Shown in pieces: positions 26,410 through 35,071 of a stretch of DNA of 54,074 bases; the stretch's first letter is position 1; every line of letters starts with the position of its first letter. The stretch spans positions 1 through 54,074 of the forward strand of contig JAGXGY010000048.1 of the NCBI GenBank assembly GCA_024636505.1. The letters are read 5' to 3'. The position numbers were made by a program, and so were the translations under genes. The notes beneath the pieces are model-generated. The model was given only the letters and a program-made list of their open reading frames with translations, was not told where the DNA came from and did not search any database. The DNA comes from Methylobacter sp. GTDB lineage: Bacteria; Pseudomonadota; Gammaproteobacteria; Methylococcales; Methylomonadaceae.

Positions 26410-29331
26410 CTATTCCATGTAATCATGCCAAATCCGCTCGACTTGAGCGCTGATTTTGGCGACCTCGGCCTCGGCGATAACCGCCTTGTCCCCTTGTAAA
26501 ACCAGCTTATGCCCGAAATCCCGGTAGGCACAGTAAGCGTTTTTAAGTGTTTCTGCATCGGCTTGGGACATGAAGCCCTGCTGCTGTAAGCCTTCAAGCA
26601 GCCTGACATTATCGGTGTAAGTCGTCAGCGCTACATTAAGAGCCGCCTGGTCTAAAACGCCAAATTGTACTATAAACTCAATATCAGCAATACCGCCTTT
26701 GCTTTGTTTGAGATCAAAGCAGTCTTTATCTGTGGTAGTCAGGGCCTCGCGCATTTTCTCGCGCATCTCGCGGACTTGTTTTTTTAAGCTTTCAGTGTCG
26801 CGAGATAAACTCAAAACCCGGCTGCGAATAGCTTCATATCGGGTTTGCAGTTGCGGATCGCCGGCGATAAACCGGCCTCGGACCAGCGCCTGTAATTCCC
26901 AGGTCCAGGCCTGATTTTTCAGGTAGTCCTCATAGCCGTTAATATGACTGACCAGCAAGCCGGAGTCGCCATTGGGCCGTAAGCGCATATCCACTTCGTA
27001 AAGTACGCCGGACAACATTTTAGTATCGAGGATATGCCGGACTTTCAGCCCCAAGCGCCCGTAAAACTGGGCGCAGGCAATCGGCTTGCCACCGTTAGTC
27101 ATCGCATTGCCGTCCTGGCAATCGTACAAAAATACCAGGTCCAGATCGGAACCGTAGCCTAATTCGATACCGCCCAGCTTGCCAAAACCAATCACTGCAA
27201 AGCCTATCGCGGTATTGTCGGTATCCGGCGGCAAGCCGTGCTTGTCGGTCAGCATCAGCCACGCACGTTCAACCACATGATCGACTATGCTTTCGGCGAT
27301 ATAGGTCAAATAATCGCTGACCACCATCAGCGGAATGACGCCCATAATATCGGCGGCGGCTACTCTTAACACATTCAATTGTTTAAACTGGCGCAGCACC
27401 ACCATCAGCTGTTCCAAATCCTGTACCTCAATTTGCGCCAGTAAAATATCAAGCTGTTGATCAAGATCGGCTTTTTTAAGCGGCTCGTAAAGAGAGCGAG
27501 TATCGAGCAATTCATCGAATAACACCGGATACTGCGCTAAATAAGCGCAAATCCACGGACTGGCCGACGACAGCTTGATCAATTGAGACAGCGCATTCGA
27601 ATTTTCAGACAATAACGATAAATACACATTCCGACCCGCTACCGCCTCAAACAAAACCAGTATCCGCAGCAAGGTCTCATCCGGGTTATCAACCTGATGC
27701 ACCCCTTCTATTACTTGCGGCATCAACCGATCCAGCACACCGGCACCTTTGGTTGTCATTCTTCTGATGGCTGCGCAATGTTTAAACTCTTTTATTACCG
27801 CCAGCAGGGTGCCGGTATCATCAATGCCGTATTCTTTTAAATAATCCGCCAACTCGAAATCATCAGCCACGCAAGCCCAGATTTTCTGGCTGTGCTGATT
27901 GGCACTATCCTGTTTTGATAACGAAAAAACCTGGTCGAAAACTTCATGCACCTGCGCTCTGACCTTATCCAGGTCCTGTTTAAAGCCGGCCCAATCGGAA
28001 TAATCCAGCGAATACGCCAAACTCTGTTGCGCTAAAGGGTCTGACGGCAAATCATGGGTTTGAAGGTCTTGATATTGCTGGATATGGTTTTCCACTCGGC
28101 GCAAAAAGCGGTAGGACTGTTTTAACTGGTCGGCATCATGTTGTGGCAATAGCGCCAGCTCGCTCAACAAGTGCAAAACATCGAGAATACCGGGTGTTTG
28201 CAAGGCTTTTTCATTGCCGCCGCGTATCAGCTGAAACGCTTGGCCGATAAATTCGATTTCGCGGATGCCGCCCGGTCCCAGCTTGATATTTTCCATGCGG
28301 TCTTTGCGCCGCAACTCCTGGGTGATCTGCGCCTTTAACGAGCGCAATTCTTCAAACGCGCCGTAATCGAGGTAACGCCGATACACAAAAGGCCTGAACA
28401 TGGCCATCAGTTGTGCGCCCACGGTAAAATCCCCGGCAACTTGGCGCACTTTGATCATCGCATAACGCTCCCATTCCCGAGCCTGGGTCTGGTAATAGTT
28501 TTCCATGCCGTCAAAGGTCATGATGATAGGGCCGCTGTCGCCATAAGGCCGTAAACGTATATCGGTACGAAATACAAAACCGTCTACGGTGCTCTCATCC
28601 AGAACCTTCACCAGATTGCGGCATAGTCTGGTAAAAAACTCGCCATAGGTGGTTTCTTTCCTGTCCGGCAATACGCCGTCTTCTGCGTAGGCAAAAATCA
28701 GGTCGATGTCGGAAGAATAATTCAATTCGTAAGCGCCCAATTTGCCCATGCCCAACACTACGATCTGCTGCGGTGTGCCGTCGGCTAATAACGGCGTGCC
28801 TCGCAGCTCGCAGGCTTCCCGATAAAGAAAATCGAGCGCGTATTGAATGCAGGCATCGGCCAGATGCGATAAATCGGTTAGCGTTTCCGATAATTCGGCC
28901 CAGCCGGCCAAATCCCGCCAGGCTATCCTGACCATTTCCCGGCGCCGTAAATGGCGCAATTTGGTCATTAACCACGCCTGCTCCCGGCAGGCTTGCGGCA
29001 TACGCACCATTCCTGGCGATAACCCGGCTTGAGACTCGACAGGCGATTGCGCTAATTTTTCGACATACGTATTTTCGCCATAGACAAGCGACAAATCGCC
29101 GGAATTGACCAGATCGACCAGCAGATGAGGATTACGGGTGCAGCTTTCGGCAACAAACTGACTGGAACACCAAACTTTGACAATCGATGCGTTAAACTCA
29201 GGCGTTTGCGTAAAATTAAGCTTAAGCGCCTTAACCCGTTCATCCCATTTGGTCAGCGAGTCAATGACCGTTGCGGTTAACTGATCCGGTAGCGAAGCAC
29301 ATTCAGCTTCAATATTTTTAATAAAAGACAT
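26410..29331 (-). CDS. glnE: Glutamine synthetase adenylyltransferase/deadenylase GlnE
   Basis: A bifunctional enzyme that adenylylates and deadenylylates glutamine synthetase in response to PII and glutamine. The protein is 973 residues (usual about 950). Two nucleotidyltransferase domains each carry an intact metal motif: GMGKLGAYELNYSSDIDLIF (near 195-214) for the deadenylylating half and GFGKLGGIELGYGSDLDLVF (near 715-735) for the adenylylating half. MENIKLGPGGIREIEFIGQ and LKQSKGGIADIEFIVQ are the paired helical-domain signatures. It is the first gene of the long minus-strand block. Confidence 0.96.
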   Translation of the reverse strand: MSFIKNIEAECASLPDQLTATVIDSLTKWDERVKALKLNFTQTPEFNASIVKVWCSSQFVAESCTRNPHLLVDLVNSGDLSLVYGENTYVEKLAQSPVESQAGLSPGMVRMPQACREQAWLMTKLRHLRRREMVRIAWRDLAGWAELSETLTDLSHLADACIQYALDFLYREACELRGTPLLADGTPQQIVVLGMGKLGAYELNYSSDIDLIFAYAEDGVLPDRKETTYGEFFTRLCRNLVKVLDESTVDGFVFRTDIRLRPYGDSGPIIMTFDGMENYYQTQAREWERYAMIKVRQVAGDFTVGAQLMAMFRPFVYRRYLDYGAFEELRSLKAQITQELRRKDRMENIKLGPGGIREIEFIGQAFQLIRGGNEKALQTPGILDVLHLLSELALLPQHDADQLKQSYRFLRRVENHIQQYQDLQTHDLPSDPLAQQSLAYSLDYSDWAGFKQDLDKVRAQVHEVFDQVFSLSKQDSANQHSQKIWACVADDFELADYLKEYGIDDTGTLLAVIKEFKHCAAIRRMTTKGAGVLDRLMPQVIEGVHQVDNPDETLLRILVLFEAVAGRNVYLSLLSENSNALSQLIKLSSASPWICAYLAQYPVLFDELLDTRSLYEPLKKADLDQQLDILLAQIEVQDLEQLMVVLRQFKQLNVLRVAAADIMGVIPLMVVSDYLTYIAESIVDHVVERAWLMLTDKHGLPPDTDNTAIGFAVIGFGKLGGIELGYGSDLDLVFLYDCQDGNAMTNGGKPIACAQFYGRLGLKVRHILDTKMLSGVLYEVDMRLRPNGDSGLLVSHINGYEDYLKNQAWTWELQALVRGRFIAGDPQLQTRYEAIRSRVLSLSRDTESLKKQVREMREKMREALTTTDKDCFDLKQSKGGIADIEFIVQFGVLDQAALNVALTTYTDNVRLLEGLQQQGFMSQADAETLKNAYCAYRDFGHKLVLQGDKAVIAEAEVAKISAQVERIWHDYME

Positions 29332-29417
29332 GGGCGAAAATCATCAATGTTTCAATCCACACCCGACCTCATCCATCGAGTGACACCCTCCGACAGATAG
29401 TGGTCGGCGGACTGTTC

Positions 29418-29530
29418 CTCCCTGTAAACGAGGAGATTGCCAAAAAGGATAACGATGCGTGCGCCTCTTTGTCAATCCCAAATAATCCCCGCGAAACGAG
29501 AATCTTCAGACCGGCAATGAAATTTGATCA
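29418..29530. repeat. Diverged copy of the MITE-like repeat
   Basis: The CCTCCCTGTAAACGAGGAG segment, then GGATAACGATGC (29447-29458), AATAATCCCC and TTCAGACCGGCAATGAAATTTGAT parallel the right half of the 33309-33500 element. The best-matching part is about 80 bp. The rest of the 281-bp gap between glnE and the lipoprotein gene holds nothing else that I recognise. Confidence 0.55.
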
Positions 29531-29612
29531 ACGACGAAGATGGGTAGAATGCTTCTTGATAAAATGATAAAGTTCGGATAATCCTGATTAAACTATTGAC
29601 CACTTTACACTT

Positions 29613-30086
29613 ATGAAAACGCCCATATCGACAAAAAAAACCTGTATTGCTGCATTGGCCGGCATCGTTATCGCATTATCCATTACCGGTTGTTCGGACG
29701 ATAAAGAAAAAACGCTGAGCGCAAAACCTGCGACCACTCATACAGCTACCGCTGTACATAATCCATTCGATCATTCTCATGACGTCCAGGTAACCGACAT
29801 ACAAAAACACAAATTTGAGCATGATTTTGCTAAACAATGCGTACAAAGAGAATTGAAGCATTTCGACAATAAAGAGGCTGATGAAGCTAAATACACTCAA
29901 CCTTGCATGTGTATTGCTAAATTTTTGATGAAGGATTTAACCGCCGAAGAAGCTGAAAAATTTATCGGCGAACATAAAAATGCCCAGTCTTTAGTCATTA
30001 AGTATGAAAATGCCGCTTACCATTGCCTGCAACAAAATGCCCATCCTAAAGGACCGGATTTTTCCAGGGGTGCGCAGGTTAATTGA
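29613..30086 (+). CDS. Small lipoprotein of unknown function
   Basis: A 157-residue protein with a lipoprotein signal peptide (lipobox SITGC, lipid Cys27). The mature part is short and highly charged, with a His-rich opening (THTATAVHNPFDHSHDVQ) and four Cys in the domain: FAKQCVQREL, then QPCMCIAKFL and AAYHCLQQ. The spacing C-x2-C-like (CMC) and paired Cys could form disulphides or bind metal or haem weakly; no CxxCH is present. I do not recognise the family. It is the only plus-strand gene between glnE and the HvfC-like gene and is flanked by copies of a dispersed repeat. Confidence 0.7.
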   Translation: MKTPISTKKTCIAALAGIVIALSITGCSDDKEKTLSAKPATTHTATAVHNPFDHSHDVQVTDIQKHKFEHDFAKQCVQRELKHFDNKEADEAKYTQPCMCIAKFLMKDLTAEEAEKFIGEHKNAQSLVIKYENAAYHCLQQNAHPKGPDFSRGAQVN

Positions 30087-30154
30087 TCAACTTTCCTTGC
30101 TGGTTTGAAACCTCTTCCTTTAGGGAGAATCGTTAGATTTGACAGCGATGTATT
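30086..30154. repeat. Partial copy (one arm) of the MITE-like repeat
   Basis: 69 bp that match the reverse complement of 33432-33500 at 66 positions (from ATCAACTTTCCTTGCTGG to GCGATGTATT). It begins at the stop codon of the lipoprotein gene. Confidence 0.8.
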
Positions 30155-30173
30155 GAAGCATTACCAACAAGCT

Positions 30174-30202
30174 AACCGTAGGAGCCGCTCTTACGGTTTT
30201 AT
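30174..30202 (+). terminator. Probable intrinsic terminator
   Basis: An 11-bp stem, AACCGTAGGAG / CTCTTACGGTT with one G-T pair and a CCG loop, is followed by TTTTAT on the plus strand. It would end transcription of the lipoprotein gene. It abuts the stop codon of the HvfC-like gene coming from the other side, where no T-run follows. Confidence 0.6.
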
Positions 30203-30975
30203 CCTGCAAGCGTAATAATTGTTTTTTCAGCCAATTCCTTTAGTATCTGCAAGCCGCCTGCCGTAATGATGTCAGGATTGGGATGCCTCGATTCTTCAGC
30301 AACCTGCTTTAGACAATCGATAACCGATACCTGTTCATGCTCTTGAATGATTTCCAGCAACCGGTAAGTGATCGGGGTGATTTCCATAAAATTAACCTCA
30401 TCATCGGGATTGCGATAAACAATCAGGAAGGTGGCTTGTTCGGGCGGGCTTTCAGGCAAAAAATCGGGCGATATTTTGTGCACCGGATATTGATAAGCCA
30501 ACGGCCAAGCCAGAGGCGATAATTGAATGCGCTGATTTTGCAGTTTAGCAGGATTGTGGTGATGATCGGATACGGTTTCCTTGGCGATGGATAAAGCCAT
30601 TTCCACCCATTCGTAATGCGCCAGCTCTAGCATAAACGGAAAATCATTCGAACCGTCCCGCTCGTTTTGCAGATAAGCCAAAAACTCTTCCGGGATTTTT
30701 GAAAAATGCGGCGATTGACAGGCATGCCTGGCAAAAAAATCCTGCCCCAGTTCAAGCCATTGCCGGTCATCCAATATTGCCTGCAATACCGGAAAATTAG
30801 CCGACAAAAAACTGTCTATATTGTTAAAAAACAGCTCGCGATACATCGCTATGCGCTGTGGCTGAACATCGGCAGGCGGCGGATTGCGTTCAGGATCCCG
30901 GATATAGCCTGCAAACTCCAGCTGTTTGGCTTTAAAATCGACGCTCATACCGGTCTCAGGCGAATTGTTTGTCAT
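30199..30975 (-). CDS. HvfC-like partner protein (DUF2063)
   Basis: 258 residues, the 'DUF2063 / putative DNA-binding' family now known as the HvfC or MbnC-like partner that recruits RiPP precursors to MNIO enzymes. Family features are the N-terminal FAGYIRDPERNPPPADVQPQRIAMYRELFFNNIDSFLSANFPVL (about 21-65) and DFFARHACQSPHFSKIPEEFLAYL. FLLELAHYEWVEMAL-like (FMLELAHYEWVEMALSIA) and a C-terminal winged-helix-like part follow. The start at 30975 has GGGGAA upstream and overlaps the HvfB-like gene by 20 bp, so the two are translated together. It acts in the cytoplasm. Confidence 0.9.
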   Translation of the reverse strand: MTNNSPETGMSVDFKAKQLEFAGYIRDPERNPPPADVQPQRIAMYRELFFNNIDSFLSANFPVLQAILDDRQWLELGQDFFARHACQSPHFSKIPEEFLAYLQNERDGSNDFPFMLELAHYEWVEMALSIAKETVSDHHHNPAKLQNQRIQLSPLAWPLAYQYPVHKISPDFLPESPPEQATFLIVYRNPDDEVNFMEITPITYRLLEIIQEHEQVSVIDCLKQVAEESRHPNPDIITAGGLQILKELAEKTIITLAG

Positions 30976-31807
30976 GTTGGTTTCCCCAGGCAGTCTGTAT
31001 AGCGCTGATAGTATTTACTTCTCTGATTAATTCAGCCATTGCCGGAAGGTTAAAATCACGCTCCAATAGCGTCGGGAACACGCCATAAAGTTCATAAGCC
31101 TTGCCCAGCAGTTTCCAGACTGGGTCGATCACGTCTGCGCCGTGGGTATCGACCAGAAAATCTTCGGCCTCGACATAATGTCCGGCGATATGCGCGTAAG
31201 CGATGCGCTGTGCCGGCATGGCTTTTAAAAAAGCTTCGGCATCGTAACTGTGGTTAATGCTGTTTACGTAAATATTATTAATGTCGATCAGCACATCGCA
31301 ATCGGCTTCTTCGACAACGGCATTGAAAAAATCGATCTCAGCCATTTCCTGGCCGGGTGCGGCGTAATAAGACACATTTTCGAGGGCTATTTTTTGCTCC
31401 AGAATATCCTGGACGCGCTTAATCCGTCCGGCAACATGAGTCACCGCTTCCGTAGTAAACGGAATCGGCATCAGGTCGTATAAATGCCCGTCCTTGCTGC
31501 AATAACTTAAATGTTCGCTGTAAAACTTGATCTGATGTTCGGCCATGAACTGTTTGACTTCGCGGACAAATTTTTCATCCAGCGGATCAGTGCTGCCTAT
31601 CGACAACGATAAGCCGTGGCAGATAAAATCAAAGCGTTCGGTCATTGCGCGAAATTGTTTGGCGTATTTTCCGCCGATGGTAATCCAGTTTTCCGGCGCA
31701 ACTTCATAAAAGCCGACCTCTTCGGGAGGCGATTCTACCAGCTGACTTAAAAAAGACCGGCGCAGACCTAATCCGGCACCGTGAACGAGATTCTGGCTTG
31801 TGTCCAT
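30956..31807 (-). CDS. HvfB-like multinuclear iron oxygenase (DUF692/MNIO)
   Basis: 283 residues of the DUF692/MNIO family (MbnB relatives), TIM-barrel enzymes with two or three irons that oxidise Cys residues of RiPP precursors. The likely metal ligands are present: the His of FICHGLSLSIG, the Glu/His of FYSEHLSYC, the Glu of IALENVSYY, the Asp and Asn of VLIDINNIYVNSINH, the His of AYAHIAGHY, the Asp/His of VDTHGADV and the Glu of LLERDFN. Context (HvfC-like after it, EGACG precursor before it) indicates that the substrate is the 202-residue peptide encoded 100 bp upstream. The most likely product is a copper-binding heterocycle, as reported for Haemophilus HvfA. Confidence 0.92.
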   Translation of the reverse strand: MDTSQNLVHGAGLGLRRSFLSQLVESPPEEVGFYEVAPENWITIGGKYAKQFRAMTERFDFICHGLSLSIGSTDPLDEKFVREVKQFMAEHQIKFYSEHLSYCSKDGHLYDLMPIPFTTEAVTHVAGRIKRVQDILEQKIALENVSYYAAPGQEMAEIDFFNAVVEEADCDVLIDINNIYVNSINHSYDAEAFLKAMPAQRIAYAHIAGHYVEAEDFLVDTHGADVIDPVWKLLGKAYELYGVFPTLLERDFNLPAMAELIREVNTISAIQTAWGNQHDKQFA

Positions 31808-31907
31808 AAGAACACCCGTGAATGATTTAATAGAAACTGGAAGGCAGATGTCATGCCCTCCAGTATAAAATAGTTAATACGGGCATAAACAATGCCCAAC
31901 TTAACGC

Positions 31908-32516
31908 TTATTTCGCTGGGGTAGCGGGAGTTGCTGGAATAGCAGGAGTTGCCGGCATTTTCATTTTATCGCCGCAAGCGCCTTCTTTGCCCTTAGACAT
32001 TTCCTTGCAACCTTTCATATCTTCGCCGCAACCTTTCATCATAGCGCCGCAGGCACCTTCTTTGGTTTTTGCTGTATCGCAAGACTTCATGCCTTCGCCG
32101 CACTGATCACCGCAAGCGCCTTCTTTACCTTTCATCATAGCGCCCATATTGCCGCAAGCGCCTTCTTTGCCTTTCATCATAGCGCCGCAAGCCGCTTCCA
32201 TACCCGGTTTCATTTTACCGTCTTTCATCATGGAACCGCATGATCCGTCAGCCGCTTTTGCTGCAGATTTTGCGCTGCCGGTTGCTTTGTTGCCAGCGCA
32301 TGCGCCTTCTGCCGTTTTAGGCTTAGTCATGCCGCCCATTGCCGCACCGCAAGCCATTTCAGCCGCTTTATCGGCGGCAGCTATTTGCATGTAACCGGCA
32401 GACATTTCAGTCATTCCGAAAGGATTCGCTTCGGCATTAACCGCCGTTGCGGCAAAAGTTGATAAAAAAGCAGCGCCCATTGCAGCAACTAAAGGCGTTT
32501 TATTAATTTTTTTCAT
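31908..32516 (-). CDS. HvfA-like Cys-rich RiPP precursor with EGACG repeats
   Basis: A 202-residue precursor. It has a Sec signal peptide (1-28, ending AVNA-EANPFG). A conserved-looking segment NPFGMTEMSAGYMQIAAADK resembles the HvfA opening. A repeat region follows with 12 Cys in all. Exact EGACG occurs four times, and variants EGACA, DGSCG and EAACG once each. The spacers are Lys/Met-rich (MMKGK, MKGC). The tail is PATPAIPATPATPAK. In HvfA-type RiPPs the EGKCG motif Cys is modified by the HvfB enzyme into a copper-chelating heterocycle; the same is inferred here. Unlike typical HvfA (about 90-100 residues) it is twice as long, with an expanded array. The gap to the HvfB-like gene is 100 bp. 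Confidence 0.88.
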   Translation of the reverse strand: MKKINKTPLVAAMGAAFLSTFAATAVNAEANPFGMTEMSAGYMQIAAADKAAEMACGAAMGGMTKPKTAEGACAGNKATGSAKSAAKAADGSCGSMMKDGKMKPGMEAACGAMMKGKEGACGNMGAMMKGKEGACGDQCGEGMKSCDTAKTKEGACGAMMKGCGEDMKGCKEMSKGKEGACGDKMKMPATPAIPATPATPAK

Positions 32517-32664
32517 GTTGACTCCAGAGTATTGTTATAAATTTCAATCTGTTCCCGACGGCTAGGCCGAGAAATATCTCGACACTTAAAAGGTATCGAA
32601 TGCCGGTTATCATATCAAAATCGACTGAATAAAGAATGAATATCCTTCTATTTGCAGGCGTTGG

Positions 32665-33297
32665 CTATACTGACTTTTCCTTAAACTCGCACAAATCTTC
32701 AATCACACAACTCTGGCAACGCGGCTTTCTGGCGATACAAGTGTAACGACCATGGAGAATCAATAAATGATGCGCATCTTTTTTATGCTGTTTAGGCACC
32801 CATTTATCCAATTTGCGTTCCACTTCCCGCACATTTTTACCGGGCGCAATGCCGGTACGGTTGGCAACCCTGAAGATATGCGTATCCACTGCAATGGTAA
32901 GTCGCCCAAAAGCAGTATTGAGTATCACGTTGGCGGTCTTTCTGCCAACCCCCGCCAGCGCTTCCAATTCTTCCCGCGTTTCCGGTACCCGGCCTTCATG
33001 CTTATCGAGTAATTGCCGACAAAGGGTGATGATATGAGCCGCCTTGCTGTTAAATAAGCCGATGGTCTTGATGTATTCTTTCAGGCCGGTCTCGCCTAGC
33101 GCCAAAATATTGCTGGGGGTATTGGCGACGGCAAATAATTTAGCCGTGGCTTTATTAACCCCCTTATCGGTCGCCTGAGCCGATAAAACCACCGCAATTA
33201 ACAACTCAAAGTGACTGGTAAAATGCAGTTCCGTAGTCGGTTCAGGTATGGCTACAGCCAGTCGATCGAAAATTTCCAGGCGTTTTTTCAGGTTCAT
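32665..33297 (-). CDS. nth: Endonuclease III
   Basis: A DNA glycosylase/AP lyase for oxidised pyrimidines. The ATG at 33297 (MNLKKRLEIFDRLAV) gives 210 residues, the usual length; the longer frame upstream runs through a repeat element and is not coding. The helix-hairpin-helix LEALAGVGRKTANVIL contains the catalytic Lys, and VDTHIFRVANR contains the catalytic Asp. The [4Fe-4S] cluster ligands are in CIARKPRCQSCVIEDLC (C-x6-C-x2-C-x5-C). It is transcribed away from guaB and towards the HvfA-like gene. Confidence 0.96.
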   Translation of the reverse strand: MNLKKRLEIFDRLAVAIPEPTTELHFTSHFELLIAVVLSAQATDKGVNKATAKLFAVANTPSNILALGETGLKEYIKTIGLFNSKAAHIITLCRQLLDKHEGRVPETREELEALAGVGRKTANVILNTAFGRLTIAVDTHIFRVANRTGIAPGKNVREVERKLDKWVPKQHKKDAHHLLILHGRYTCIARKPRCQSCVIEDLCEFKEKSV

Positions 33298-33308
33298 CAA
33301 ATTTTTTC

Positions 33309-33500
33309 GCTGGTCTGAAACTTCCCCCTTCAGGGGGATTATTTGAGTTTGACAACGATGCACTGGCATCGTTATCCTTTTTGATGGCCTCCCTCGAGCG
33401 AACGAGGAGCTTACCAGAGGATAACGATGCGAATACATCGTTGTCAAATCTAACGATTCTCCCTAAAGTAAGAGGTTTCAAACCAGCAAGGAAATTTGAT
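33309..33500. mobile_element. MITE-like element with 69-bp inverted arms
   Basis: Left arm 33309-33377 and right arm 33419-33487 are inverted copies (53 of 69 bases). Both arms end in GCTGGT / ACCAGC outside and GTTATCC / GGATAAC inside. A 41-bp centre holds a small CTCC...GAGG hairpin. The right arm extends about 13 bp to 33500, as judged by the copy at 30086-30154. There is no ORF of its own; it fills most of the nth-guaB gap. I see no target-site duplication that I can assign with certainty. Confidence 0.65.
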
Positions 33501-33523
33501 GAATTTTGATGCATTTGCTCTGA

Positions 33524-35071
<1,548 letters not shown>

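Follow-up and report, generated by a model that had tools for sequence, protein, structure and literature searches.

Three adjacent minus-strand genes most likely make a secreted, chemically modified copper-binding protein. They lie in the window, the 54,074-nucleotide stretch of Methylobacter DNA analysed here, and belong to a known family; in this member, many added methionines and a changed modification motif have taken the protein out of reach of the standard profiles. We consider it probable that this is a captophorin/oxazolin-type (HvfABC) RiPP locus whose product is an exported, thiooxazole-bearing, Met-rich Cu(I) buffer or store. Long arrays and tolerance of EGACG are already published; new here, in that we did not find them in print, are a Met/Cys unit, the near-loss of Lys before Cys, an occasional six-Cys module, the usual absence of a DoxX gene and an intergenic hairpin. 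The novelty lies in a Met-rich, Lys-poor remodelling in bacteria for which copper matters.

The three genes and their protein families

The gene order on the minus strand is nth, precursor, MNIO enzyme and partner. The HvfA-type, Met-rich precursor gene (31908..32516) encodes 202 residues with 12 Cys and is supported by its open reading frame, its dN/dS and orthologues in Methylobacter and relatives. It is followed by a 283-residue HvfB-type MNIO maturase (PF05114; 30956..31807) and a 258-residue HvfC-type partner with DUF2063 and NGO1945_C domains (30199..30975), whose gene start overlaps the end of the enzyme gene by 20 bases. Coordinates, lengths and order of precursor, DUF692 enzyme and DUF2063 protein had all been given correctly in the initial annotation.

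The enzyme scored 353 bits with PF05114 and 444.8 bits with the NCBIfam HvfB model NF003818 (cut-off 360), but stayed below the cut-off of the bufferin BufB model (268.6 versus 310 bits) and far below that of the MbnB model (50 versus 325 bits). The partner matched DUF2063 and NGO1945_C and reached 317.7 bits on the HvfC model NF050145 (cut-off 142). Compared by sequence with proteins of solved structure, the enzyme came closest to 3BWW (E 3.4e-70) and the partner to 3DEE (E 2.8e-12). With both proteins over curated cut-offs and a Cys precursor that bears a signal and shares ancestry with HvfA-type peptides, the placement in the HvfA/HvfB/HvfC family put forward at the outset holds. Residues H64, H99, E143, D175, H206, D220 and H222 were invariant in 147 aligned enzymes covering both locus types, and E249 was present in 146; some of these residues are presumably metal ligands.

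For comparisons among relatives, groups were set by enzyme identity to the window: near (at least 75%, n=97), more distant (n=34) and a second locus type (n=16). An Arg-Arg pair, a catalytic Asp and a Phe have been tied to enzymes acting on Lys-Cys substrates (PMC13097082, available portions). The corresponding R16 was found in 96 of 97 near and 33 of 34 distant enzymes, R17 and D251 in all members of both groups (97/97 and 34/34 each), and F252 in 96/97 near, 28/34 distant and 12/16 second-type enzymes. At a threshold of 85% within each group, a single alignment column told near and distant enzymes apart, indicating that the substrate changed while the enzyme shows no obvious change, in line with the acceptance of Ala for Lys by FonBC (PMC13097082, in part). 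Enzyme dN/dS between window and relatives was 0.041-0.079 in nine comparisons.

No DoxX-type gene adjoins the locus, as had been stated; the gene's correct name is HvfX, not the HvfD used then, and loci of this type as a rule lack it. DoxX genes lay near 2 of 185 window-type loci (fetched flanks of 1.5-3.5 kb, some of them cut) versus 12 of 17 second-type loci. The same flanks contained nth in 142 and a partner match in 182 of the 185 window-type loci, a set in which named and other entries overlap (L001, L003 and L034 all contain the window) and which does not represent 185 genomes. In two genomes of the same family (G041 and G066; loci L066 and L067), DoxX lies near a window-type enzyme and the leader pattern described below picked no precursor. 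A putative lipoprotein gene without a convincing family match occupies 29613-30086 on the plus strand, with similar genes in 69 of the 185 loci.

Descent and remodelling of the precursor

The precursor opens with what reads by eye as a Sec signal peptide with n, h and c regions (residues 1-28, 32433..32516, minus strand), with cleavage expected after VNA; A28 is invariant in 94 aligned precursors. A leader block follows (NPFGMTEMSAGYMQ, residues 31-44, 32385..32426, minus strand), which the RRE partner may recognise. Its G41 and Y42 are invariant in 94/94 aligned precursors, as are P32 and F33, the latter two partly by construction, given that precursors were picked with the leader pattern [NSD]PF. 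The leader count of 131/131 is likewise partly by construction, and 12 of the 185 loci gave no precursor by this pattern, some being cut by contig ends. One precursor whose frame enters masked bases (L063) was kept in motif counts and tree analysis and left out of alignments.

The initial annotation had counted 202 residues, 12 Cys and four EGACG motifs, exactly as we find them; against its three near copies we count four, EGACA, DGSCG, EAACG and EMACG. The remaining Cys pentads are GDQCG, MKGCG, MKSCD and MKGCK, and Lys precedes none of the 12 Cys. From N31 on, 22 of 172 residues are Met.

The window precursor alone gave no Pfam or NCBIfam match at E<=1, which counts against our preferred reading. 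Among the 94 aligned precursors, 56 matched NF050137 and 56 matched NF050188 (E<=0.01), the window matching neither. An orthologue from a genus mate (L008), identical to the peptide of Methylobacter tundripaludum SV96 (L161), scored 24 bits against NF050137, the HvfA domain model (cut-off 19.5), and the precursor of one relative in the order reached 55.7 bits. The SV96 version carries 6 Cys and that of Methylovulum miyakonense HT12 (L188), another cultured methanotroph, 13. A profile of the window group, built from 42 chosen precursors, was run against 274 genomes of the class and matched 56 at E<=1e-6, of which 53 belong to other orders. We inspected 19 of these loci and recovered a precursor from 18; in most, EGKCG repeats follow the same leader. 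Because orthologues match HvfA models and class-wide EGKCG precursors share its leader, the window precursor is, on sequence grounds, HvfA-type by descent. Profile search, named at the outset as the place where a lack of relation to HvfA would appear, did make the window peptide alone look unrelated, a result overturned only through its orthologues. The curated HvfA profiles thus miss a diverged branch, with 38 of the 94 aligned members, window included, lacking an NF050137 match at E<=0.01.

Motif counts were made on 131 unique precursors, with the Met/Cys and six-Cys patterns written after looking at the sequences. Lys stands before 201 of 228 Cys in the 34 distant precursors and before 27 of 232 in 28 Methylobacter-like precursors, in which Ala is commonest (134). 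The Met/Cys unit (CGSMMKDGKMKPGMEAACGAMMKGKEGACG, residues 93-122, 32151..32240, minus strand) follows the pattern CGxMM-x3/4-KMKxG[MLQ][EN]xxCGxMMK. It occurs in 27/28 precursors whose enzyme is at least 86% identical and in 62/69 at 75-86%, together 89 of 97 near precursors, as well as in one of 34 more distant precursors (L069, from the same family) and in none of 16 second-type ones. It was absent from 18 inspected precursors, 17 from elsewhere in the class and one (L211) from the same family. In an alignment of 42 hand-chosen rows (the window and 41 of the 76 named precursors), its Cys columns and most of its Met columns either do not vary or reach 90% conservation or more, values raised by a choice of rows that favours module-bearing and similar precursors.

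The six-Cys module (CGDQCGEGMKSCDTAKTKEGACGAMMKGCGEDMKGC, residues 135-170, 32007..32114, minus strand) was found in 22 of the 131 unique precursors and requires eight changes on the enzyme tree, indicating that lineages gain and lose it. D or K comes directly after two of its Cys (MKSCD, MKGCK). A link between this module and complete loss of Lys-Cys was considered and dropped as unsupported over the tree: within genus rows, complete loss was seen in 8/8 module rows versus 1/13 others, but tree-wide Lys-Cys is also missing from 20 rows without the module and partly retained in 13 rows with it, and the tree offers four independent pairs, below the need of a sign test.

We did not find the Met-rich remodelling in the consulted parts of PMC13097082, PMC12452194, PMC12538549, PMC13419390, PMC3621798, PMC12668002 and PMC4831470; supplements and most subscription journals lay outside the search.

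Non-coding elements, host genome and distribution

A hairpin with an 11-bp stem lies between the precursor and enzyme genes (31836..31864, minus strand). An uninterrupted stem of at least 9 bp (G-T allowed) was present in 76 of 88 near loci, for which 20 shuffles that kept base composition only gave 5.05 on average and never more than 9; among distant loci, 5 of 9 had such a stem. Stem sequences differ between groups, and most near relatives keep the stem while its sequence changes. The searched hairpin pattern occurs once in the window's own genome, and a dispersed repeat of this form can therefore be set aside. Rfam gave no match at the gathering cut-off within 29000-34000. Counts of promoter-like and terminator-like signals did not exceed shuffles (6 versus a mean of 5.6, and 4 versus 4.8), so the case for the hairpin is its conservation across genomes. 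It may be an mRNA-processing or attenuation element favouring the precursor, and would then probably hold precursor output above enzyme output.

Upstream of the precursor gene (about 32578-32620), an alignment of 28 upstream regions revealed a TATGAT-like box, TTTGATATGATAA, and downstream of it an inverted repeat of TTCGATA..TATCGA type (32578..32600, minus strand), a candidate operator or 5' hairpin. The box and an ATTCGAT..ATCGA repeat were seen in many Methylobacter relatives, the repeat being partial or altered in several of the 28 regions. Neither a copper regulator nor expression evidence was found for the window locus.

The window genome, 86.7% complete, carries a second captophorin-type locus (L002, G000:C9:72343-76131) with genes for a precursor, an AhpD/CMD-type protein, an MNIO, an HvfC and an HvfX/DoxX protein over its cut-off; the precursor bears EGKCGEGKCG and EGGCSG repeats (Cys-Ser). 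Two DoxX matches occur in the genome, one next to this locus on C9, the other partial and located on contig C20. A bufferin precursor of the DUF2282 family (PF10048) was not found in it at E<=0.001.

Within a sample of 121 genomes, comprising the window's own and 120 relatives of its order, 106 had an MNIO match at E<=1e-60. A window-type enzyme (at least 61% identity) was found in 103 genomes and the second type in 17; G014, G065 and G097, whose MNIO is either of the second type alone or a match of 40-43%, were not counted as window-type. Calculated for nine pairs of window and relative, the dN/dS of the precursor was 0.083-0.209, placing it under purifying selection; these values, together with the spread of the enzyme through the order, argue that the precursor is more than a chance reading frame. 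They also bear on the idea that the EGACG array is a decaying copy, its Lys-Cys eroded since the DoxX-linked second locus took over. Two loci in one genome, one of them with EGKCG motifs and DoxX, and a window peptide that HvfA profiles no longer recognise would fit such decay, but the selection on the precursor, its conserved Cys and Met columns and the far wider occurrence of window-type than second-type enzymes make it highly improbable.

A multi-site copper peptide was said at the outset to suit a copper-demanding organism; the host is a Methylobacter-like methanotroph that carries a PF02461 (PmoA/AmoA) gene, and the closest enzyme among named organisms is that of Candidatus Methylobacter titanis (95% identity). 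PF02461 was present in 94 of 106 MNIO-bearing genomes and also in 9 of 15 MNIO-free ones, so a tie of the locus to pMMO was not supported as a requirement. In family f6 of the same order, 7 of 10 genomes have PF02461, yet none of the 10 has a window-type enzyme, which counts against the preferred reading. The window-type locus appears to be old, mostly vertically kept and not required by pMMO.

A product acting as an exported, methanobactin-like chalkophore, scavenging scarce copper for pMMO rather than buffering an excess, would suit a methanotroph host with PF02461. In the same line, the incomplete genome shows two MNIOs only, each HvfB-type and well short of the MbnB cut-off, so a methanobactin system was not seen in it. 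At about 174 residues, however, the mature chain as predicted is large for a scavenger, and an importer gene was not recognised among the immediate neighbours examined; we regard a chalkophore as quite unlikely. A copper-RiPP locus widespread in the order offers a concrete gene set for studying how gammaproteobacterial methanotrophs without methanobactin handle copper for pMMO.

A proposed copper store and its known counterparts

In the captophorin-type reading that we prefer, the precursor would be made with a Sec signal, and its NPF..GYM segment would probably be bound by the HvfC-type partner. The HvfB-type iron enzyme would turn Cys in [E/D]-x-x-C-[G/A] into 5-thiooxazoles before export, with a loss of 4 H per Cys. 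In the periplasm, the flexible, Met-rich chain would bind several Cu(I) via thiooxazole sulfur, with conserved Met thioethers and the two probably unmodified Cys of MKSCD and MKGCK as extra ligands, and the modified peptide would buffer or store copper in the methanotroph. The geometry of these sites could not be read from an AlphaFold model, as the predicted precursor was disordered (pLDDT 48.3, pTM 0.17).

Published chemistry, as given in the available parts of the sources, guides this proposal. The HvfA-type heterocycle has been reassigned to 5-thiooxazole (PMC13097082, PMC13419390), which makes methanobactin, brought in by the initial annotation, a more distant comparison. All characterised MNIO-PME1 cases are stated to install 5-thiooxazole (PMC13097082). 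By homology to fontiphorin, oxazolin and gonophorin (PMC13097082), the enzyme pair studied here should do so too. FonBC accepts Ala for Lys in vitro (EAACG/EGACG) and also Cys-Ala (PMC13097082), so we expect 8 strict sites and about 10 with relaxed ones. The Ala-for-Lys motif pointed out earlier is real, but such tolerance had already been reported. Similarly, the array had been called longer than typical, which is unremarkable against a published family of 31-506 residues with up to 58 Cys (PMC12452194) and the seven sites of FonA (PMC13097082).

The same FonBC study, in its available portions, also holds evidence that counts against our reading: a single-repeat substrate was left unmodified, two repeats being needed, and the tested substrates had their sites at intervals of 5 residues (PMC13097082), against at least 11 for most strict sites in the window precursor. 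FonBC did not process Cys with a charged residue next to it (PMC13097082), and D or K follows two Cys here. Combined with the lack of any Lys-Cys and with Met columns nearly as conserved as the Cys, this wide spacing could mean that the peptide is mainly an unmodified, metallothionein-like Cys/Met protein or that few sites are modified. Against such a product stand a partner match kept in nearly all window-type loci, the low enzyme dN/dS and the acceptance of position-3 Ala by FonBC (PMC13097082); we consider it unlikely.

Returning to the captophorin-type product, a more specific version is that a mixed-ligand captophorin evolved in gammaproteobacterial methanotrophs as a high-capacity periplasmic Cu(I) reservoir passing copper to pMMO, in which conserved Met clusters (MM..KMKxGME..MM) would separate the thiooxazoles and certain lineages would add unmodified Cys. 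We offer this only tentatively, as a doubtful possibility. If true, its thiooxazole/thioether site would be of a type that we did not find in the consulted portions of the published work searched. The Met/Cys unit predicts a testable kind of copper site. The window locus itself was not found in the literature searched, including the consulted portions of the methanotroph papers PMC3621798 and PMC4831470; the main text of the latter, a copper transcriptome of Methylococcus capsulatus Bath, gave no DUF692, UPF0276, DUF2063 or DUF2282.

The comparison with known systems follows the accessible parts of their descriptions. Like FonABC of Fontimonas thermophila (PMC13097082), the locus has three genes without DoxX, a Cys-repeat precursor and an MNIO with a DUF2063/RRE partner, and its enzyme keeps the Arg-Arg and Asp-Phe of Lys-Cys enzymes; unlike the EGKCG peptide FonA, the window peptide is rich in Met, carries an extra Cys module and lacks both Lys-Cys and an HvfA-model match. 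With oxazolin HvfABC(X) of Haemophilus influenzae (PMC13419390) it shares HvfB/HvfC equivalog matches, repeated Cys pentads and a peptide that is exported, presumably so in our case; HvfA, however, has six EGKCG Cys in an operon with the DoxX-like hvfX, against 12 Cys, EGACG and no DoxX in the window. The bufferins (Buf1/DUF2282, Buf2; PMC12452194) likewise combine an MNIO, a DUF2063/RRE partner, a Sec signal and a copper context, but the window enzyme falls below the BufB cut-off and its genome showed no DUF2282. Methanobactin MbnABC has the enzyme superfamily and copper in methanotrophs in common with the locus and differs in its MbnB score, its partner type and, by homology, probably its heterocycle. 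Together, these comparisons place the window locus as a variant of captophorin/HvfABC, because Lys-Cys pentads are absent from its precursor.
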